Source: Cupriavidus sp. IDO
GTDB lineage: Bacteria > Pseudomonadota > Gammaproteobacteria > Burkholderiales > Burkholderiaceae
Direction of reading: 5' to 3'
DNA: 64,000 nucleotides
Assembly (NCBI RefSeq): GCF_000812465.1
Contig: NZ_JWMA01000201.1
Coordinates: forward strand, 1 to 64,000
In this document: one piece after another, positions 8,282 through 48,723 of the stretch
Layout of the letters: each line of letters begins with the position of its first letter
How positions within the stretch are numbered: the stretch's first letter is position 1
Made by a program: the position numbers and the translations under genes
Notes under the pieces: generated by a model
What the model saw: the letters and a program-made list of their open reading frames with translations, nothing else
Databases searched by the model: none
What the model was told of the DNA's origin: nothing

Positions 8282-8416
8282 TTATACGACTTGGCGAATG
8301 AGTATGATTATCACGTAGGCTGCGGCAACCACCAGCATGGCCCCAGCAAAGGCCAGGTAGTATCTAGCCCCGTGGTGTGGCGGATGGGAATGAAAGTGAT
8401 GAACAACAGGCTTCAT
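8282..8416 (-). CDS. 44-residue His-rich single-pass membrane peptide
   Basis: The frame starts at the ATG whose complement is at 8414-8416, preceded by AAGGGGAAG at good spacing, and ends with TAA. The N-terminal 16 residues contain six histidines (positions 6, 7, 9, 11, 14 and 15). They are followed by a single transmembrane helix at about residues 19-40 (YYLAFAGAMLVVAAAYVIII) and a short RQVV tail. I do not know a family. The cluster of histidines beside a membrane helix suggests metal binding, but that is inference. It lies upstream of the minus-strand deacetylase gene and downstream of a Nudix gene on the same strand. Confidence 0.5.
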   Translation of the reverse strand: MKPVVHHFHSHPPHHGARYYLAFAGAMLVVAAAYVIIILIRQVV

Positions 8417-35832: not shown

Positions 35833-38262
35833 TTACTGCGGCACCAGCTCCAGCCGCTCACGGCTCTCCTTCTCCACCGCCTTGCGCGTATAGACCAGCG
35901 GGAAATACTCCCCCTTGGCCCACAGCGGCGCCAGATCCCGGTAATGCGGACTGGCTGGGTTGCCCGACTGCCCCGGCGTGTTGACCACGCGCGATGCGTC
36001 CCAGTTGCCCACATCCAGCACCATGCGGAACGACGCGCCGCCAGTCAGCCGGAAGTCGCTGTTGCGGTAGCTGGTATTCATCGGCGTGAACGCCGAGCCG
36101 CCGATTGGGCCGGCGTTGACGTCGTATTGCCGGCGCTCGGCTTCCGTGAGGATCGGCTCCATCGGATGTGCGAAGACAGCCGTGTGCAGCTTGCCCCATT
36201 GCCAGGTGCGCATGTCACCGCCGAGCTTCGCTTCCACTTCGGCCATGGCGCTCTTGAGCGAGGCCAGCATGACCTCGTTGCGTTGTGCCACCGGCATCCA
36301 TGACGCCGGCTGTTCCAGGACCTCGATCATGCGTGCGGCATCGCCGGCGCCGATCAGCTTCGCCGCTTCTGGCGAGGGGATTGCGCGCACCACGGCCGGG
36401 CGCAGGTGCTTGCTGAACCAGACCTCGAACAATGCCGCCGGAGCGCTGTCGGCACGCTCGTTGCCGTCCCAGCCGCGCAGCAGGTCCAGCCCGCGCGCGA
36501 GTTGCGGATCGTCGGAGCGTACGTCCCCGAGCACCGCCACCACGCGCTGCGCGGGCAGCGAAACGGTGTCGTTCTGCCACGCCATCGAGTCCTTCACCGA
36601 GCTGCGCGGATTGGCCGCCACCAGGCTCTTGAGCCGGCGCGCGCGCGAGCTGTCGCTCCACTCGTAGCCAACGCCCAGTTTGGCCGCCGGATGATCGGGC
36701 GGAATGTTGTTCTCATTGGCCGTGACGATGTAGCCGGCCGCCGGATTGTAGGCCCACGGCAGTTCGTCCATGTTGCGATAGCCGGCCCATTCGTAGCGGC
36801 CGTCGCCCGGCACCGGCGTCAGGCCGTCCCAGTTGGGGCGGTTCACGGTCAGCCCGCCGGGCACCCAGCCGATATTGCCGCCGGTGTCGGCATAGACCTG
36901 GTTCTCGCCGGGTGCGCCCCAGCGGTTCATGGCGGCGCGGAACTGATCCCAGTTGCGCGCGCGCATATAGTCCATCGAGCCGAAGTACGGCGCCATGCCG
37001 TAGTCCAGCCACGCGGCGCGCAGCGCCCAGGCCTGTGCGCGCTTGGCGTCGGCATACAGCACCGGGCCGTGGCGGGTGAAGTCGATGGTGACCTTGCGCG
37101 GTGCAGGTTCGCCCTTCACCGCGATTTCCTCGGTGAGGGTCTCCATCGGCTCCCAGCGGCCCTTGTACTTGTACTCGTGCGGATTGGCCGGGTTGGTCTC
37201 GTAGGTATAGAGATCCTCCTGGTCCATGTAGAACCGCGTCAGCCCGAATGCGATGGTGCCGTTATGGCCGATCGAGATGCCTGGCAGGAACGGCTCGCCC
37301 GCGCCGATGACCGACAGTCCCGGCGCATTGAGATGGCTGATGTAGCGCAGGCTCGGCGCACCGTGCGAGCGGTGCGGATCGTTGGCCAGGATGGGCCGGC
37401 CAGTGGTGGTGCGCTTGCCGCCGATGACCCAGTTGTTGGAGCCCAGGCTGCGCCCGGTGTCGCTGTTGGGGTCCACCAGCGCGTAGAGCTGGTCGAGCGG
37501 TATGGCGTCGGCCTTCGCGCTGGTCCAGGCTTCCCTGGGGAAGCGCGCCGAGGCCGTCGCCAGGTCGTAGGCGCGGCGCAGTTCGGCAGCAGGCACCGAG
37601 CAGGTCTCGAGCCCCGCCGGCAGCTTCGGTTCGACCGGCGGATCGAGCTCGCGGCGCAGCCAGTCGGCGCGCGCGGCTGTGTCCCTGGCTTCGCAGTAGA
37701 CACGCGCCCGGTCGATTTCGCCGGTGAAATTGAGCGTCAGGCCATGGTGGCGGATGCGCACGATGTCTTCCGCACGCCAGCGCGCAGGCTTGTAATTCAG
37801 CTTGCGGAATTCCGGGGGCAACAGCTCCGGCTTGCTCTCGGTCAGCGCCACATAGGCATTCACGCCGGCAACGAACGCCTCGGCCACGCGCTTGGCGTCG
37901 GAGCCGTAGGCCAGCCATTCGCGGTACATGTCGCCGCGGAACAGCACGGCGCGCGCCATGCGGTCACCTTCGACATAGGCCGGGCCGAAATCCTTCGCCA
38001 TCTCGCCCAGCCCGCGCTTGCGCCACAGGTCGATCTGCCAGAGCCGGTCGCGCGCGGCCATGAAGCCCTGCACGTAGAAAGCGTCATAGAGCGTGTTGGC
38101 GTAGATGTGCGGCACGCCCCAGCGATCCACCAGGATGCTGGCGGGCTTCTCAAGCCCGGAAACGGCGAAGCGCTCGGCGTGCGCGGGGCCTTCGGCCAGT
38201 GCGGCGGAGGTGGTGGCGAGCAATGCCAGCACGGCGGCCAGCCTGCGGGGGGTGCGTAACAT
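35833..38262 (-). CDS. Penicillin acylase family amidase (Ntn hydrolase, possible AHL acylase)
   Basis: This 809-residue periplasmic precursor should cleave itself into alpha and beta subunits. A Sec signal ends near ALA-EGPAH. The alpha region carries DRWGVPHIYANTLYDAFYVQG. The beta-subunit nucleophile is S275 in SLGSNNWVIGG, followed by ILANDPHRSH. Relatives hydrolyse penicillins, N-acyl-homoserine lactones or other N-acyl amides, and the acyl preference cannot be told from sequence. The ATG at 38262 has GAGGAGACC upstream; the long frame to 38652 is not homologous. It stands alone. Confidence 0.9.
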   Translation of the reverse strand: MLRTPRRLAAVLALLATTSAALAEGPAHAERFAVSGLEKPASILVDRWGVPHIYANTLYDAFYVQGFMAARDRLWQIDLWRKRGLGEMAKDFGPAYVEGDRMARAVLFRGDMYREWLAYGSDAKRVAEAFVAGVNAYVALTESKPELLPPEFRKLNYKPARWRAEDIVRIRHHGLTLNFTGEIDRARVYCEARDTAARADWLRRELDPPVEPKLPAGLETCSVPAAELRRAYDLATASARFPREAWTSAKADAIPLDQLYALVDPNSDTGRSLGSNNWVIGGKRTTTGRPILANDPHRSHGAPSLRYISHLNAPGLSVIGAGEPFLPGISIGHNGTIAFGLTRFYMDQEDLYTYETNPANPHEYKYKGRWEPMETLTEEIAVKGEPAPRKVTIDFTRHGPVLYADAKRAQAWALRAAWLDYGMAPYFGSMDYMRARNWDQFRAAMNRWGAPGENQVYADTGGNIGWVPGGLTVNRPNWDGLTPVPGDGRYEWAGYRNMDELPWAYNPAAGYIVTANENNIPPDHPAAKLGVGYEWSDSSRARRLKSLVAANPRSSVKDSMAWQNDTVSLPAQRVVAVLGDVRSDDPQLARGLDLLRGWDGNERADSAPAALFEVWFSKHLRPAVVRAIPSPEAAKLIGAGDAARMIEVLEQPASWMPVAQRNEVMLASLKSAMAEVEAKLGGDMRTWQWGKLHTAVFAHPMEPILTEAERRQYDVNAGPIGGSAFTPMNTSYRNSDFRLTGGASFRMVLDVGNWDASRVVNTPGQSGNPASPHYRDLAPLWAKGEYFPLVYTRKAVEKESRERLELVPQ

Positions 38263-38393: not shown

Positions 38394-40004
38394 TCAGTAG
38401 ACGTCCCGGCGATAGCGGCCCGCGTCGGCCAGGCGGCGCAGGCCGTCCTCGCCCAGGATCTCTGTCAGCGCGTCGTCGACCCCGGCAGCCATACCTTGCA
38501 GGCTGCCGCAGACGTAGATGGCCGCGCCGGCCTCGATCCATTCGCGCAGGGCATCGGCATGCCGCCACACGGCGTCCTGCACGTAGCGCAGTGCGCCGCC
38601 GTCGCGGGACCAGACCAGGTCGAGGCGTTCGAGTACGCCTTCGGCCTGCCATGCCGCGAGTTCATCGCTGAAGAAGCCGTCGTGCCGCGCCGAACGTTCG
38701 CCGAACAGCAGCCAGTTGCGGTGACGGCCCGCCACAGCGCGCGCCTTCAGATGTGCGCGCAATCCGGCCAGGCCGGTCCCGTTGCCGATCTGGATCATCG
38801 GGCGATCACCGGCAGGCGGATGGAAGCTGCGGTTGGGGCGGATGCGCAGCGCAATGCGCGCGCCGGCGGGCGCATGCTGCGTCAGCCAGCCGGAGGCCAG
38901 TCCGAGCCGGCCGTCCTCATAGCGGGTCTGCCGCACCAGCAGGTCAAGCTGGCCGTCCTGGGGCAGCGAGGCGATCGAATATTCGCGGTGCGGCAGTGCC
39001 GGCAGGGTGTCGATCAGCCGTTGCGGCGGCAAACCCTGCATCGCCGCGAAGGCCGGTTCGGGCAGCGGCATCCGCGTGGCGAGTGCCTCGGCCAGCGTCA
39101 TCGCATGGCCGTCGCAGCGCACGCGCGTGGCGCCATCCAGCGTGAGGCGCTCCAGCAACCGGTCGACTTCGGCGGGCGCGTGGCACGGGCCGATCTCGGC
39201 GATATCGCCGGGCTGCCAGTCCAGCGCCGCTGCATCGGCAGGTGTCAGCGAGAGGTGAAACGCCGGCGCGCCCTGGCTGCCGGGATTGACGTGATGGCGC
39301 GCCGCCAACCGCCAGTTGCCGTAGCGCGGACGCTCCCAGTCGGCAATCTCGGCACCGCCGCTGAGCGCCGACAGGTGGTTCTGCCAGTGGCGTAGCGCAC
39401 CGGCATCGCCGTTGTCGACTTCGATCAGGTCGAACAGCGGCTGCGCGTGGTGGCGTTGCAGCCAGTCGGACAAGGCGTGGCCGAAGGCGCAGAAGCGCGC
39501 GTAGCTGCTGTCGCCGAGCGCAAGAACGCCATAGCGCAGCTGGCGCAGGCCGTCGTGCCCGGACAGCAGGCGGCGCGTGAAGCCCGAAGCGCTGTCAGGC
39601 GCATCGCCTTCGCCCGTGGTGCTGACGACGAACAGGGCCTGCCGGCAGGCTGCGAGACGGCCCGCATCGAGATCGGCCAGCGACAGCAACTGCACGGGCA
39701 TGCCTGCGCCCTGCAGGGCCGTTGCGGTCTGCAAGGCGAGCTGTTCGGCAAAGCCGGTCTGGCTGGCGTAGGCGACCAGCGTCGCGCCCTCCTTGTCCGC
39801 ACTGCCCGACAGCGCCGACACGCGCGCGCGACGGCGACGATGGTGCGCAAGCACCGCGCCGCAGAAGCCTGCGTAGGCAAGCACCACGCCCGCGGCCATG
39901 CCCGCGCGCGACGGGCTCGACATGGCCAGCGCCACGCCGGCGACGGCTGTCAGCCAGCTCGCGCTGCCGGCCAAATCCGTCAGCATCGGGCTGCCGTCGC
40001 TCAT
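38394..40004 (-). CDS. Membrane-anchored flavodoxin/FNR diflavin reductase (CysJ-like)
   Basis: This 536-residue electron-transfer flavoprotein has one or two N-terminal membrane segments (TAVAGVALAM, GVVLAYAGFCGAVLAHH), then a flavodoxin domain (VAYASQTGFAEQLALQTA) that binds FMN. A ferredoxin-NADP reductase module follows, with the FAD motif REYSIAS, the NADPH pyrophosphate motif GNGTGLAGLRAHL and YVCGSLQGMA. It should take electrons from NADPH through FAD to FMN on the cytoplasmic face. It is the last gene of the PepSY-ApbE operon and overlaps ApbE by 4 bp. Sulfite reduction is unlikely because no CysI gene is nearby. Confidence 0.88.
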   Translation of the reverse strand: MSDGSPMLTDLAGSASWLTAVAGVALAMSSPSRAGMAAGVVLAYAGFCGAVLAHHRRRRARVSALSGSADKEGATLVAYASQTGFAEQLALQTATALQGAGMPVQLLSLADLDAGRLAACRQALFVVSTTGEGDAPDSASGFTRRLLSGHDGLRQLRYGVLALGDSSYARFCAFGHALSDWLQRHHAQPLFDLIEVDNGDAGALRHWQNHLSALSGGAEIADWERPRYGNWRLAARHHVNPGSQGAPAFHLSLTPADAAALDWQPGDIAEIGPCHAPAEVDRLLERLTLDGATRVRCDGHAMTLAEALATRMPLPEPAFAAMQGLPPQRLIDTLPALPHREYSIASLPQDGQLDLLVRQTRYEDGRLGLASGWLTQHAPAGARIALRIRPNRSFHPPAGDRPMIQIGNGTGLAGLRAHLKARAVAGRHRNWLLFGERSARHDGFFSDELAAWQAEGVLERLDLVWSRDGGALRYVQDAVWRHADALREWIEAGAAIYVCGSLQGMAAGVDDALTEILGEDGLRRLADAGRYRRDVY

Positions 40005-41008
40005 GCCAGCATCGCGGCAAACGCCGGGGAGAGATGCTCATCAAAGCCATCGGGGTGCCGCACCAGAAAGCACGCGGCAATGCCGTGGCGGCGCGCGTGT
40101 TCCATGCCGGCTTGCGGGCCCAGCACGGTCAGCGCAGTGGACAGCGCATCGGCCATCATGCACTGCGCATGCAGCACGGTGACCGATGCCAGCGCGTGAC
40201 TGGCAGGATAGCCGGTACGCGGATCGATGGTGTGGGCATAGCGGCGGCCACCGCTGTCGAAAAAGCGCCGGTAGTCGCCCGAGGTCGCCACCGACAGGCC
40301 GTGCAGCGCGACCAGCGTCTGTTCGTCGGACTCGCGCTGCACGCCCGGCGGCGCTTCCAGCGCCACCCACCACGGCATGCCGTCCGGCTTGACGCCGTGG
40401 CCACGCAGTTCGCCGCCGATCTCGGTGAGGTGATGGGACAGGCCCTGTGCATCGAGATAGCGAGCCACGGCGTCCACGGCAAAGCCCTTGGCAATGGCGC
40501 AGAAGTCCAGCGAAACGCCCCCAGGCTGCTGGGCGCGCCTTGCGCCGATATCCAGTTCGATACGTGCCCAGCCACATTGCTGCCGCGCCTGCGCGACCTG
40601 ATCGGCGGACGGCGGCGTGTCGCGCCGCGGCGCCGGGCCGAAGCCCCACAGGTCCACCAGCGGCCCGGCACTCGGGTCATAGGCGCCGCCGCTGTCGCGC
40701 GCCACCTGCAACGCGGTTTGCAGCACGTGAAAGCAATCGTCCGGCAGCGCGTGCCAACTGCCCGGCGCAGCGCGGTTGAAGCGGCTGAGATCCGAATCCG
40801 GCACCCAGTTGCTCATCTGCGCGATCACGCCATCGAGCACGGCCTGGATGCCTTGCAGGATCCCACCCCCATTCGCCGAAGGCGGCAGCACGGCCACCAC
40901 CGACCAGGTGGTGCCCATGGTCTCGCCGCCCCAGCGATGCACCCGCGCATCAGCGGCGAGCGGCACCGGGGGCGCGGACAAGGAAACGGGGATCAGGACG
41001 CGATTCAA
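40001..41008 (-). CDS. apbE: ApbE-type FAD:protein FMN transferase
   Basis: This 335-residue enzyme attaches FMN covalently to Thr/Ser of target flavoproteins. The motifs GGETMGTTWSV, KGFAVDAVARYLD, GGELRGHG, TSGDYRRFF and HTIDPRTGYPA are the ApbE set for FAD and Mg binding. There is no lipobox and only a weak hydrophobic N-terminus, so its export is unclear although its presumed target is periplasmic. It lies between DUF4198 and the diflavin reductase. The likely substrate is the DUF2271 protein two genes upstream. Confidence 0.92.
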   Translation of the reverse strand: MNRVLIPVSLSAPPVPLAADARVHRWGGETMGTTWSVVAVLPPSANGGGILQGIQAVLDGVIAQMSNWVPDSDLSRFNRAAPGSWHALPDDCFHVLQTALQVARDSGGAYDPSAGPLVDLWGFGPAPRRDTPPSADQVAQARQQCGWARIELDIGARRAQQPGGVSLDFCAIAKGFAVDAVARYLDAQGLSHHLTEIGGELRGHGVKPDGMPWWVALEAPPGVQRESDEQTLVALHGLSVATSGDYRRFFDSGGRRYAHTIDPRTGYPASHALASVTVLHAQCMMADALSTALTVLGPQAGMEHARRHGIAACFLVRHPDGFDEHLSPAFAAMLA

Positions 41009-41024
41009 ACCGGGACTGGCGGGT

Positions 41025-41873
41025 TTATTGCGGCAGCACTTCCATCGTCACCGCATAGGTGGCGCGGCGGGACTTGGCGGGCTTGACCGACGCCTTGTCG
41101 TCGCGCACCTCCGCTTCGAGCCAGTACATGCCCGGCGCCGGCCACTTGACGCTGAACTTGCCGTCAGCGTCGGTGGTAGCGCTGAACTCCTGCAACTGGT
41201 CGCGGTAGCGGATGCCGCCCGGCACCACCGAGACCTTCAGGTTGCCGGCAGGCTTGCCGTCCAGCAGCAGGCGGAAGCTGGCCGTGTCGCCGGCGACGAG
41301 ATCGTTCGGGTGCGTGATCGGCGCCAGTTCCAGGCCACGGCCGGTGGTACGCAGGCCCTTGTCGCTCGGCTTGCCGGCGGTGACGAAGGACTCGACGCGG
41401 CCTTCGGCCTGCGTGACCTGCAGGTCCTGCGCGTTGGCGGGCACTTCCTTCGCGAACGACTCGGCCGTGCCGCGCCAGCGCCTGGTCTGGCCATCTACCT
41501 TGTAGCTGGCGAACAGGCCCTGGTTGACCACGGAAACCTTGTACGTGCCGGGCTGGCTCAGGTGCAGGTCGAAGGTGCTGCGATAGCGGCTGGTGGAGGT
41601 GTTCTCGGCCTTCACCGCGCTGCCGTCGGGCGCCGTCACTTGCAGGTTGTCCAGGCGCAGCGGCACGTGTTCGAAGTAGAACAGGTCGTTGGACACGGCG
41701 GCATCCACCGTGACCCACGGATCGCTGCCGGACAGCACTGTGGCCGAAGGCAACAGCCATTGGCGGTGGGCATGCGCGGCCAGCGGCGCCAGTGCGGCAA
41801 GGGCCAGCACGGCAATACGGCTGGCGAAACTGCGGGTCGGGCGTGCGGCGGACAGGATGGCGGAAATGTTCAT
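41025..41873 (-). CDS. DUF4198 periplasmic protein
   Basis: This 282-residue secreted protein has a Sec signal ending near AHA-HRQWLLPS. The histidine right after the signal and HRQWLLPSATVL are hallmarks of DUF4198, a beta-rich family linked to metal uptake or binding. The C-terminal half contains an Ig-like or Cna-B-like module (SATTDADGKFSVKWPAPGMYWLEAEV). No covalent flavin motif is seen. Its place between DUF2271 and ApbE suggests an accessory or metal-presenting role in this redox unit. Confidence 0.85.
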   Translation of the reverse strand: MNISAILSAARPTRSFASRIAVLALAALAPLAAHAHRQWLLPSATVLSGSDPWVTVDAAVSNDLFYFEHVPLRLDNLQVTAPDGSAVKAENTSTSRYRSTFDLHLSQPGTYKVSVVNQGLFASYKVDGQTRRWRGTAESFAKEVPANAQDLQVTQAEGRVESFVTAGKPSDKGLRTTGRGLELAPITHPNDLVAGDTASFRLLLDGKPAGNLKVSVVPGGIRYRDQLQEFSATTDADGKFSVKWPAPGMYWLEAEVRDDKASVKPAKSRRATYAVTMEVLPQ

Positions 41874-41892
41874 CGTCGAGGCTCCGGAGAGA

Positions 41893-42417
41893 TTACGGCT
41901 TCAGGTCGACGGTCACGCCGCCGAGTTCGTGTTCGCCCTTGGCGCGGGCGGTCTGCGCGGATTGCGGCGGCCACGTGAATGGCACGCGCAGCAGCTCGCG
42001 GCCGCCCACTTCACGCGCGGCTTCGACCACGAGCTGGTAGTTGCCGGCCGGCAGCTTGCCCAGCGGGGCCTTGCCGTCGGTGAAGCTCACCGTTTGCTCG
42101 CCGGCCGCGCGGGTCGCGCCGGAAACGCCGTCGGCCGGCATCTGCATGTCGCGGCCGGCCTTGCGCCACCACTGGCGCATGTCCTTGAGCCACTTGGTGC
42201 CCTCGCCGTCCTTGTGCTTCACGTCGTACCAGACGGCCAGCGTCGATACCGGGCTCTGGTCGGCACGCTCGACCCACATCGCCACATAGGGACGGTGGTA
42301 TTCCGCGACGTTCAGGCGCGGGATTTCCACCTTGACGTTCATTTCGGCCGCCATGGCCGGGCCGGCCAGGGGAACCGCGGCCATGCCGGTCAGGGTGACG
42401 GTGAGCAGTCGGCGCAT
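41893..42417 (-). CDS. DUF2271 periplasmic protein with SGAT flavinylation motif
   Basis: This 174-residue secreted protein has a Sec signal ending near AMA-AEMNV. Typical DUF2271 blocks are RPYVAMWVE, LAVWYDVKHKDGEGTKWLKDMRQWWRK (read in parts) and GNYQLVVEAAREVGGRE. Residues 99-102 read SGAT within DGVSGATR, which resembles the ApbE acceptor motif where Thr receives FMN (as in NqrC and other FMN-binding proteins). T102 is therefore the predicted flavin site. With ApbE in the same operon, I infer a covalent flavoprotein carrying electrons in the periplasm. Confidence 0.85.
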   Translation of the reverse strand: MRRLLTVTLTGMAAVPLAGPAMAAEMNVKVEIPRLNVAEYHRPYVAMWVERADQSPVSTLAVWYDVKHKDGEGTKWLKDMRQWWRKAGRDMQMPADGVSGATRAAGEQTVSFTDGKAPLGKLPAGNYQLVVEAAREVGGRELLRVPFTWPPQSAQTARAKGEHELGGVTVDLKP

Positions 42418-42457
42418 ATCGAAGAAACCTCGTCAGAGAAATGCAGAGAAAAACCGT

Positions 42458-43114
42458 TCAGTGGATGTAAAGAATGGCCAGCAGCAGCGGCACCACCAGC
42501 CCCAGCCCCACCAGCGGCCACGTACCCACGCGGCCGGCCGCGTGCAGCTTGAGCAGGAACAGGCCGGTCACGCTGAAGACCAGGCACGCCAGCGCGAACA
42601 CATCGAGGAACAGGCTCCAGGCACCGCCCGTGTTGCGGCCCTTGTGCAGGTCGTTCAGGTAGGAGATCGCGCCGCGCGTGGTCTTTTCGTACTGGGCCTC
42701 GCCGCTGTCGAGCTCGAGGCTGACCCAGGCATCGCCGCCGGGACGCGGGAGCGACACGTAGATTCCACCGCCCGACCATTCCGCTTCGCGCCCACGCGCA
42801 TCGATGTCCAGCGCCTGCGACAGCCACTCGGCCAGCGCCGTGGGCACCGGCCCCTTGTGATCCTTGCCCTTCCCCTCGCCGGCGGGCATCTGCGTCCTGA
42901 GCGCATCCAGCAGGCCGGCTGGCGCGGTCGCATTGCGCGTTACCACAAGCGGCTTCGCCTCGATCTGCGAGGCATGGTTGAGCGTGAAGCCGGTAGCGGC
43001 GAACAGCAGCATCCCGATCAGGCAGATTGCGGAACTGATCCAGTGCCACTGGTGAAGATGTTTCAGCCAGAAGGCGCGGCGCTGCTGGCCGGAAGCCGGC
43101 TGGGTTTCGGTCAT
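42458..43114 (-). CDS. PepSY-associated membrane protein
   Basis: This 218-residue inner membrane protein has about three helices: residues 26-46 (AICLIGMLLFAATGF), 166-190 (FALACLVFSVTGLFLLKL) and 200-217. A periplasmic PepSY-like domain lies between the first two. Histidines H19, H21, H24, H47, H157 and H191 flank the helices and could ligate heme b, as in related ferric-reductase-like PepSY proteins. It is the first gene of the operon and lies downstream of a promoter overlapped by a Fur-like site. It probably carries electrons across the membrane from the diflavin reductase to DUF2271. Confidence 0.85.
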   Translation of the reverse strand: MTETQPASGQQRRAFWLKHLHQWHWISSAICLIGMLLFAATGFTLNHASQIEAKPLVVTRNATAPAGLLDALRTQMPAGEGKGKDHKGPVPTALAEWLSQALDIDARGREAEWSGGGIYVSLPRPGGDAWVSLELDSGEAQYEKTTRGAISYLNDLHKGRNTGGAWSLFLDVFALACLVFSVTGLFLLKLHAAGRVGTWPLVGLGLVVPLLLAILYIH

Positions 43115-43255
43115 TGCGATTGGTCGGCGGGCGCAGCCTTGCCTGGCCCGCTGCCCTTGTCTTGCCCTGGTGTTCTGGAGATGGATGCGCCCGGCGCGGC
43201 GCCATCGCATGGAGGCGCAGTGGCATTGTCATCACACTGCCCGATGCGAGAGAGA

Positions 43256-43284
43256 AGGATAATCGTTCGCATTTGAAACTGCAA
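43256..43284 (-). promoter_or_regulatory. Sigma70-like promoter overlapped by a Fur-like box
   Basis: On the minus strand TTGCAG (43284-43279) and TATCCT (43261-43256) are separated by 17 bp. The plus-strand sequence GATAATCGTTCGCATTTGA (43258-43276) overlaps this promoter and matches the 19-bp Fur consensus at about 11 positions. Iron-replete repression of the PepSY-DUF2271-DUF4198-ApbE-reductase operon is the natural reading. Confidence 0.6.
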
Positions 43285-45318: not shown

Positions 45319-46560
45319 TCAGAACATCGCCCCCGCCGCCCATCCCACCACGCCACTGGCAATCACAACCAGCCACGGCGGCAGCTTCCAGACCATCAGC
45401 GCAACCAGCGCCAGCACGACCGCGCCGATATCTAGCGGACCATGGACCGCGCTGGCCCAAACCGGCTGCCAGAGCGCGGCCAGCAGCAGGCCGACCACGC
45501 CCGCATTCACGCCCGCCAGCGCGGCCTGCGCGCGCCGGTTGCGGCGCAGCGTTTCCCAGAATGGCAGTGCGCCGACCACCAGCAGGAAGGCCGGCAGGAA
45601 AATCGCGAGCAGGCATAGCGCGCCGCCGGCCCAGCCCGACGGTTCGATCTGCATCGACGCGCCGAGGAACGCGGCGAACGTGAACAACGGGCCCGGCACA
45701 GCCTGGGCGGCGCCGTAGCCGGCGAGAAAGGTCTCCTTGCTGACCCAGCCGGTGGGCACTACCGCGGCATCCAGCAATGGCAATACGACATGGCCGCCGC
45801 CGAACACCAGCGCGCCGGCGCGATAGAACGCATCCACCATCTTCAGTGCATTCGCGGGATACAGCTGCGCGAGCAAGGGAAGGCCGGCCATCAGCAAAAC
45901 GAAGAGCGTCAGCGCAATGGCTCCCGCACGATGGCTCACCGGCATCGGCAGCGGATCGTGCGCAACAGCCTCGGCTGGACGAATGAGCAGCACCCCCGCC
46001 ACTGCCGCGGCGGCGATGACGCCAACCTGCACCCAGGGGCCGGGCACTGCCAGCACGATGCACGCGGCGGCCACCATGATGGCAATGCGCAAGGCGTCCG
46101 TGCACAGGCTTCTTCCCATGCCCCACACGGCCTGCGCCACCACCGCTACGGCCACCAGCTTCAGGCCGTGCAGTACGCCCGGTGCCGCGGCCATGCCATA
46201 GCGCGCGACGCCGGCCGCGAACAGGATCATGAGCACGGCGGATGGCAGCGTGAACCCGACCCACGCGGCGATCGCGCCGGCATATCCGGCGCGCGACAGC
46301 CCCAGTGCGATACCGGTCTGGCTGCTGGCCGGGCCGGGCAGGAACTGGCACAGCGCGACGAGATCGGCGTAGGTGCGCTCGCTCATCCATTGCCGGCGCC
46401 TGACGAATTCCTCGCGAAAGTACGCGAGGTGCGCGACCGGCCCGCCAAAGGAGGTCAGGCCGAGGCGCAGGAAGATCAGGAAGACGCCAAGCGGGCCGCT
46501 GTGGTGGTGGTCGGCTTCGCCGCCGGCGGCTTCGGTTTCATTGCGTTGCAGGCTTGCCAT
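45319..46560 (-). CDS. chrA: Chromate transporter ChrA
   Basis: This 413-residue inner membrane protein of the CHR family has two homologous CHR domains. The first begins LGLTSFGGPVAHLAYFREEFV with YADLVALCQFLPGPASSQ. The second begins GALVFGGGHVVLPLLD with QAVPGPLFTFAAFLG. ChrA exports chromate by proton-coupled antiport and gives chromate resistance. A His-rich patch (DHHHSGP) precedes helix 1. The ATG at 46560 was chosen over the TTG at 46584. There is no chrB regulator beside it. Confidence 0.9.
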   Translation of the reverse strand: MASLQRNETEAAGGEADHHHSGPLGVFLIFLRLGLTSFGGPVAHLAYFREEFVRRRQWMSERTYADLVALCQFLPGPASSQTGIALGLSRAGYAGAIAAWVGFTLPSAVLMILFAAGVARYGMAAAPGVLHGLKLVAVAVVAQAVWGMGRSLCTDALRIAIMVAAACIVLAVPGPWVQVGVIAAAAVAGVLLIRPAEAVAHDPLPMPVSHRAGAIALTLFVLLMAGLPLLAQLYPANALKMVDAFYRAGALVFGGGHVVLPLLDAAVVPTGWVSKETFLAGYGAAQAVPGPLFTFAAFLGASMQIEPSGWAGGALCLLAIFLPAFLLVVGALPFWETLRRNRRAQAALAGVNAGVVGLLLAALWQPVWASAVHGPLDIGAVVLALVALMVWKLPPWLVVIASGVVGWAAGAMF

Positions 46561-46803
46561 GTCGTTGTCGCTTCCGGTGCGCAAAGCGGGGATTCTGAGG
46601 CTGAATGTGCAATTCGCTCAATCCGGGCGTTGCGGCGCGCGTGGATTGTGGCGCCTCAGTCACGCCTCCTGACGTCAGGAATCCGCGCTGCCTGCGTGGG
46701 TGGTATTACCCAATCAAGTTAGTTGGCTCCCCTGCCGTTATGCGCTGACGCACACCAAAGTGCCACCGATGACAAAAAGCAGAGAACGGAGGAAGGAAAA
46801 CAA

Positions 46804-48471: not shown

Positions 48472-48723
48472 ATGATGGCATTCATTGGCACCGTGTTCGT
48501 TGGCCTTATCGTCGGACTGATCGCAAGGGCCATCAAGCCCGGCGACGACAAGATGGGCTGGATCATGACCATCATCCTCGGCATTTTGGGCTCGATCGTG
48601 GCGGGCTACGTGGGACGCGCCGCCGGCTGGTACCAGCCCGGGCAGCCGGCCGGCTGGATTGCCTCGGTGATCGGCGCGATCGTGCTGCTGGTGATCTACG
48701 GGATGGTTCGCCGCAAGCCCTGA
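48472..48723 (+). CDS. GlsB/YeaQ/YmgE-family small membrane protein
   Basis: This 83-residue protein (called transglycosylase-associated, though no such activity is shown) has three hydrophobic segments rich in glycine: FIGTVFVGLIVGLIARAI, WIMTIILGILGSIVAGYVG and WIASVIGAIVLLVIYG. The family responds to general stress. Two ATGs in tandem start the frame after GGGAG. Its end overlaps the convergent penicillin-binding-protein gene by 28 bp. Confidence 0.85.
   Translation: MMAFIGTVFVGLIVGLIARAIKPGDDKMGWIMTIILGILGSIVAGYVGRAAGWYQPGQPAGWIASVIGAIVLLVIYGMVRRKP

Follow-up and report, generated by a model that had tools for sequence, protein, structure and literature searches.

Which substrate a predicted flavin-based redox operon in Cupriavidus sp. 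IDO reduces, and on which side of the inner membrane its flavin is attached, are the questions raised by the 64,000-nucleotide stretch of DNA analyzed here (contig NZ_JWMA01000201.1, positions 1 to 64,000; hereafter the window). The operon comprises genes for a PepSY membrane protein, exported DUF2271 and DUF4198 proteins, an ApbE flavin transferase, and a flavodoxin/FNR reductase. Gene content, upstream region, and comparison with related loci indicated that it is probably repressed by Fur and serves metal reduction in the periplasm, with ferric iron or ferric siderophores as the most likely substrates. Its membership of an already published system was well supported. The iron-reduction proposal is sound but not new, and the compartment of ApbE is the more interesting question.

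Relation to published iron-linked operons

The five genes all lie on the minus strand (38394-43114), in the transcription order PepSY, DUF2271, DUF4198, ApbE, reductase (Table 1). Intergenic spacing ranges from -4 to 40 bases, the reductase and ApbE genes overlapping by 4 bases. A preliminary description of this DNA had proposed five same-strand genes with short gaps, and gene content, order, and Pfam matches bore this out. Clusters of PepSY, DUF2271, DUF4198, and ApbE genes were published in 2021 by Meheust et al., who proposed a role in iron reduction and assimilation (PMC8238504). The components reported there for PepSY-like flavinylation systems, a PF16357 PepSY protein, a DUF2271 protein with an [ST]GA[ST] motif, ApbE, and DUF4198, were all encountered in the window.

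The closest experimental precedent is operon CC3059-CC3063 (CCNA_03155-03159) of Caulobacter crescentus, reported to match the window in all five gene types and in their arrangement, with a Fur site over the promoter (PMC3751524); in C. segnis (locus L116), this gene order was observed directly. According to lacZ and electrophoretic mobility shift assays (EMSA), iron limitation induces the C. crescentus operon, loss of fur derepresses it, and Fur binds it (PMC3751524). Transposon mutants in CCNA_03155-03159 showed reduced fitness in ethylenediaminetetraacetic acid (EDTA; PMC12004947). Whereas regulation in Caulobacter is experimental, that of the window operon was read from sequence.

Individual components also have iron-linked relatives. 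VciB of Vibrio cholerae is PepSY-like, as is the membrane protein of the window operon, and extracytosolic iron reductase activity has been reported for it (as cited in PMC8238504). FoxB, HiuB, and other PepSY_TM ferrisiderophore reductases are, like the window protein, iron-linked membrane PepSY proteins with conserved histidines. The FoxB fold holds two heme sites with two conserved histidines each, whereas the window protein is short (218 residues) and its profile matched no solved chain in the PDB. Histidines were strongly conserved in the alignment (H24 and H157 in 92/92, H218 in 91/92, H191 in 86/92, and H47 in 81/92), in line with the description of a His-rich PepSY membrane protein, which may bind heme.

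The preliminary description further placed a Fur-like box over the promoter. Of this claim, the box itself stood: it matched 14 of the 19 positions of the classical consensus, and it overlaps a weak promoter candidate read by eye. A strict sigma-70 scan found no promoter there. A strict scan of the operon yielded one terminator-like site only (42501-42476, at the end of the PepSY gene), below the shuffle mean of 2.5. Because two further sites in the window scored similarly (15/19 at 8294, inside a small open reading frame (ORF), and 14/19 at 48561), a single score proves little, and the evidence lies in recurrence upstream of PepSY genes. In the 250 bases preceding PepSY, the highest-scoring match reached at least 14 in 38 of 92 regions (91 related loci and the window), as against 8 of 1840 shuffles, and at least 13 in 55, as against 46 of 1840. 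Judged by the box and its recurrence, repression of the window promoter by Fur is predicted. Elsewhere in the genome, a 14/19 box was located approximately 355 bases upstream of feoB. Among ten TonB-receptor genes sampled, one had a 14/19 box 30 bases upstream and a second had a score of 13 approximately 490 bases upstream; one of the ten had almost no upstream DNA.

The 15/19 site at 8294 was taken as a chance match. It sits within a minus-strand ORF (8282-8416) for a 44-residue, His-rich, single-span mini-protein (MKPVVHHFHSHPPHHG...). This stretch had a DNA match in 3 of 20 relatives, with a similar ORF read in one of them (L259), and had no match among plasmids; an Rfam search of the window was empty.

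A possible association with TonB receptors had also been raised. In a set of 93 related loci (13 loci of the order Burkholderiales and the best 80 of 435 relatives, so that close kin are over-represented), a TonB-receptor-like frame was present in 42, in 28 of these within 300 bases of the operon; the window itself holds no such gene. Detection of these frames, unchecked against Pfam, relied on a profile built up from two seeds. An adjacency of DUF4198/DUF2271 genes to iron-responsive TonB receptors has been reported before (PMC7190382).

Consistent with these comparisons, the following mechanism is proposed. At low iron, Fur would leave its box and the five genes would be co-transcribed. The reductase would pass electrons from reduced nicotinamide adenine dinucleotide phosphate (NADPH), via flavin adenine dinucleotide (FAD) and flavin mononucleotide (FMN), to PepSY, as a heme-bound protein of the inner membrane. 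This protein would then reduce FMN that ApbE has placed covalently on residue T102 of periplasmic DUF2271, which in turn would reduce Fe(III). The N-terminal histidine of DUF4198 would bind metal and may hold it or hand it on, and Fe(II) could then enter the cell, for example via FeoB; the genome encodes one FeoB and 11 TonB-barrel matches. For this operon, the sequence of electron carriers, the use of NADPH, the heme of PepSY, and iron as substrate are inferred, the iron role by analogy with relatives. A ferric or ferric-siderophore reductase function, as first suggested for the window, is thus also the published reading of the same gene set elsewhere and agrees with the comparisons made here; ferric reduction by the window operon is a prediction.

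The reductase matched a solved sulfite reductase flavoprotein (1.6e-45), its FAD_binding_1 match fell under that family's own Pfam cut-off, and its hydrophobic N-terminus was read by eye as a membrane anchor. The idea of an additional flavin site in the reductase was rejected, as [ST]GA[ST] was present in only 3 of 84 sequences.

Gene content, probable metal site, and competing functions

Among 200 genomes of the order, 19, including that of the window, had a DUF2271 match above the cut-off, as did 75 of 397 genomes of the phylum. All five genes occurred in order in 12 of the 18 other order genomes, while one lacked ApbE, three (L036-L038) encoded a distant ApbE-DUF2271 fusion protein with PepSY and DUF4198 genes nearby, and in two the queries recovered ApbE and the reductase alone. 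In a PDB search, the DUF4198 protein of L036 matched entries named phosphoribosylglycinamide formyltransferase (9mhi, 9mhk), a name suspected to be wrong. With the full five-gene order also present in 66 of the 93 related loci, the comparison of operon order called for in the preliminary description came out in its favor.

The remaining loci of this set lacked ApbE only (17), the reductase only (8, one on a cut contig), both (1, on a 3.7-kb contig), or PepSY (1, at a contig end). Loci without ApbE were chiefly from Pseudomonas and Stutzerimonas, and those without reductase from Phenylobacterium and relatives; in the four inspected members of the latter class (L061, L067, L088, and L098), the downstream frames listed looked unlike a reductase by eye. 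A further sample of 40 loci, taken from phylum genomes outside the order and picked mostly by rank, contained 37 with PepSY, DUF2271, and DUF4198, and 11 with all five genes in order. Since ApbE and the reductase are often absent, the PepSY-DUF2271-DUF4198 core is steadier than the full electron route proposed initially. All component families of that route are present in the window, but their absence from many otherwise similar operons indicates that it is not obligatory.

Several observations weigh against an iron-reducing function. ApbE was absent from 18 of the 93 loci and the reductase from 9 (3 of these 27 gaps sit on short or cut contigs), and in the 40-locus sample each was missing from 20. 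Fur scores remained below 13 in 37 of the 92 upstream regions, including most Pseudomonas and Stutzerimonas loci. These weak cases were not explained by a box preceding a receptor gene, since the best scores before the receptor gene in 13 loci with such a gene upstream were 10 to 14. No TonB receptor adjoins the operon in the window, and none of the 11 TonB-barrel matches in the genome lies on its contig. Finally, the one measured DUF4198 protein found, IsDUF4198 from Ideonella (PDB 9GCB), is reported to bind nickel best, followed by zinc and cobalt, through its N-terminal histidine and His18 (PMC12537917), and the PepSY_TM relative CrpH has been tied to copper.

These last two points would fit an operon that reduces or handles another metal, such as copper, nickel, or cobalt, with Fur control reflecting metal balance instead of iron capture. 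The dissociation constant of IsDUF4198 for nickel is 18 nM (PMC12537917), and CrpH supports heme-copper oxidases. The window DUF4198 protein is itself probably metal-binding. Its conserved histidines were H36 (94/94), H69 (90/94), and H188 (88/94), of which H36 is probably the mature N-terminus after signal cleavage between AHA and HRQW (read by eye); in the window protein, cleavage ahead of H34 would likewise expose a histidine at the N-terminus. This feature is common to IsDUF4198 and the operon proteins. However, the operon family has no conserved histidine near position 18, and instead has H69 and H188 (9GCB was not aligned); 9GCB was also absent from the results of three PDB sequence searches. 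As the conserved histidines differ, the metal of IsDUF4198 cannot be transferred to the operon protein, for which iron is a first guess given the Fur control. Control of the same five Caulobacter genes by Fur and iron, demonstrated by EMSA (PMC3751524), the recurrence of Fur-like boxes and TonB receptors at related loci, and the reduced fitness of Caulobacter mutants under EDTA (PMC12004947), although EDTA binds other metals too, make a different metal an unlikely alternative.

Flavinylated relays have been linked to many acceptors (PMC8238504), and the reductase can be absent from the operon. Both observations would be compatible with a general periplasmic reducing system, acting on thiols or peroxide or disposing of respiratory electrons, that is merely induced by low iron. 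The recurring TonB receptors and Fur-like boxes and the conserved DUF4198 histidines speak against such a system, which was considered very improbable. Reduction of ferric iron or ferric siderophores was accordingly retained as the preferred function.

Compartment of flavin attachment

The predicted flavin carrier of DUF2271 is T102, the last residue of the motif DGVSGAT (residues 96-102; 42112-42132), within which SGAT occupies residues 99-102. Position 102 was threonine in all 94 aligned sequences, while the four-residue core was SGAT in 74 and TGAT, SAAT, SSAT, TSAT, TSPT, TQPT, SGPT, or TGPT in the rest. In A. ursilacus, DUF2271 is reported to become flavinylated upon co-expression in E. 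coli and to lose flavinylation when the equivalent threonine is replaced (PMC8238504). A pattern search of the 40 further loci hinted that the flavin site is lost along with apbE. Alignment overturned this idea: residue 102 was threonine in 39 and serine in 1, and the variants TSPT, TQPT, SAAT, SSAT, SGPT, and TGPT also occurred beside apbE in the first set.

The window ApbE could be aligned to solved ApbEs (5mgy, residues 22-330; 6nxi, residues 23-334). The study of PMC8238504 retained clusters in which one or more target genes had a predicted signal peptide or lipid site, and it refers to extracytosolic ApbEs, whereas the window ApbE has no clear signal. Its reading frame opens just 13 residues before the TTG start codon, so that no longer signal is possible. 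Operon ApbEs typically begin with M-x-R-V-L-I-P (56/75), followed by proline or charged residues. Export signals were assessed by hydropathy, uncharged runs, and inspection, with the counts limited to sequences that had an intact 5' end and a clear anchor motif. Averaged over the best 10 residues, hydropathy was at least 2.0 in 10 of 75 ApbEs, 89 of 91 DUF4198 proteins, and 54 of 89 DUF2271 proteins, and at least 2.3 in 2/75, 76/91, and 29/89, respectively; an uncharged, proline-free run of at least nine residues was present in 10/75, 91/91, and 65/89. Since many DUF2271 signals were missed, these measures are crude. Plain signals were seen in two operon ApbEs, both from Luteibacter and counted in both groups of ten. 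Besides these, the looser hydropathy threshold was passed by eight of the 75 and the run threshold likewise by eight, giving up to 16 borderline proteins (six of the eight run-threshold ApbEs were listed, none shared with the hydropathy set) and at least 57 that passed neither. Among 20 operon ApbEs from the phylum sample, one (L228) had a lipobox; another (L222) passed the run threshold and was not signal-like.

The genomic context of ApbE was also examined. Nine of 20 operon-bearing genomes had no other ApbE match, and in none of the nine (completeness known for one) did the operon protein have a clear signal; one of them (G158, L023) passed the hydropathy threshold and one (G230) had a nine-residue run next to the domain. 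Conversely, all 14 tested genomes with an apbE-less operon encoded ApbE elsewhere. Of 16 such proteins, 12 (L146-L157) had a lipoprotein signal, as did L158 by eye, two (L160 and L161) had none, and L159 was unreadable. A quick tree was built from 68 ApbEs, of which 42 were operon sequences (roughly half of the available ones, and nine picked in addition). In it, the operon proteins grouped together (Shimodaira-Hasegawa-like approximate likelihood ratio test, 94, just under 95), apart from the lipoprotein ApbEs (100). The nearest relatives of the window protein were from Cupriavidus, and L182, which fell inside the operon group, was an operon copy. The other ApbE of the window's own genome (L131, C112, approximately 135-137 kb) belongs to a second flavinylation cluster, next to a di-haem peroxidase-like protein and an FMN_bind protein, and is without an obvious signal by eye.

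As judged by these crude measures, most operon ApbEs have no clear export signal, so DUF2271 may receive its flavin before export. Tentatively, ApbE could be cytosolic and flavinylate the unexported DUF2271 precursor, which would then pass through Sec with FMN attached; export of FAD would not be needed. Sec can pass bulky attached groups. Within the cytosolic-ApbE reading, Pseudomonas-type operons without apbE would rely on a periplasmic lipoprotein ApbE that acts on the same DUF2271 site. Most ApbEs are apparently secreted and cytosolic ones exist, such as the Klebsiella-type enzyme without a signal peptide (PMC12052999). No report of an ApbE without an export signal in a PepSY/DUF2271 system was found in searches covering open-licence papers.

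Alternatively, with a probability judged to approach an even chance without reaching it, the operon ApbE does leave the cytosol, by means of a weak or atypical signal, and functions in the periplasm according to the standard model, which is compatible with each of the functions considered above. The eight non-Luteibacter ApbEs above each of the looser thresholds, and the real signals overlooked by the measures (only 54 and 65 of 89 DUF2271 proteins pass), are consistent with such export. So is the removal of a so-called signal peptide from both A. ursilacus proteins in the 2021 study, whose authors thus assumed one for the cognate ApbE (PMC8238504). In Salmonella, moreover, a cytosolic ApbE was reported to be unable to replace the periplasmic one (PMC12052999). 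On the other hand, at least 57 of 75 operon ApbEs pass neither threshold, proline or charged residues interrupt most N-termini shortly after M-x-R-V-L-I-P, and the ApbEs encoded outside apbE-less operons have plain lipoprotein signals.

Surroundings and implications

Upstream of the operon, a Rid-family protein and an alpha/beta hydrolase are encoded on the opposite strand. A penicillin amidase gene (35833-38262, minus strand; start chosen at 38262), with weak, sub-threshold likeness to PvdQ, lies 131 bases downstream of the reductase gene, and a chromate transporter family protein is encoded at 45319-46584 (minus strand).

Table 1. Predicted genes and regulatory features of the operon (window coordinates).
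Feature	Position	Strand	Basis and remarks
PepSY_TM_like_2 membrane protein, 218 residues	42458..43114	-	PF16357, 5.4e-80; alternative longer start at 43210 possible
Exported DUF2271 protein, 174 residues	41893..42417	-	PF10029, 1.7e-54
Exported DUF4198 protein, 282 residues	41025..41873	-	PF10670, 7.9e-62
ApbE flavin transferase, 335 residues	40001..41008	-	PF02424, 1.1e-87; TTG start; without clear export signal
Flavodoxin/FNR reductase, 536 residues, CysJ-like	38394..40004	-	Flavodoxin_1 (PF00258), 9.5e-25; NAD_binding_1 (PF00175), 6.3e-6
Fur-like box GAGAAGGATAATCGTTCGC	43252..43270	+	14/19 against classical consensus; near end 138 bases upstream of PepSY start
Candidate weak promoter TTGCAG-17-TATCCT	43256..43284	-	By eye; overlapped by Fur-like box

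With the present analysis and its broad comparison, a published iron-starvation redox operon is described in a Cupriavidus genome as well, and DUF4198 gains a testable role as the metal-binding part of the system. If ApbE is cytosolic, the same exported protein would acquire its flavin in the cytosol in some bacteria and in the periplasm in others, and covalent flavin loading before Sec would revise the common view that ApbE functions outside the cytosol with exported FAD.

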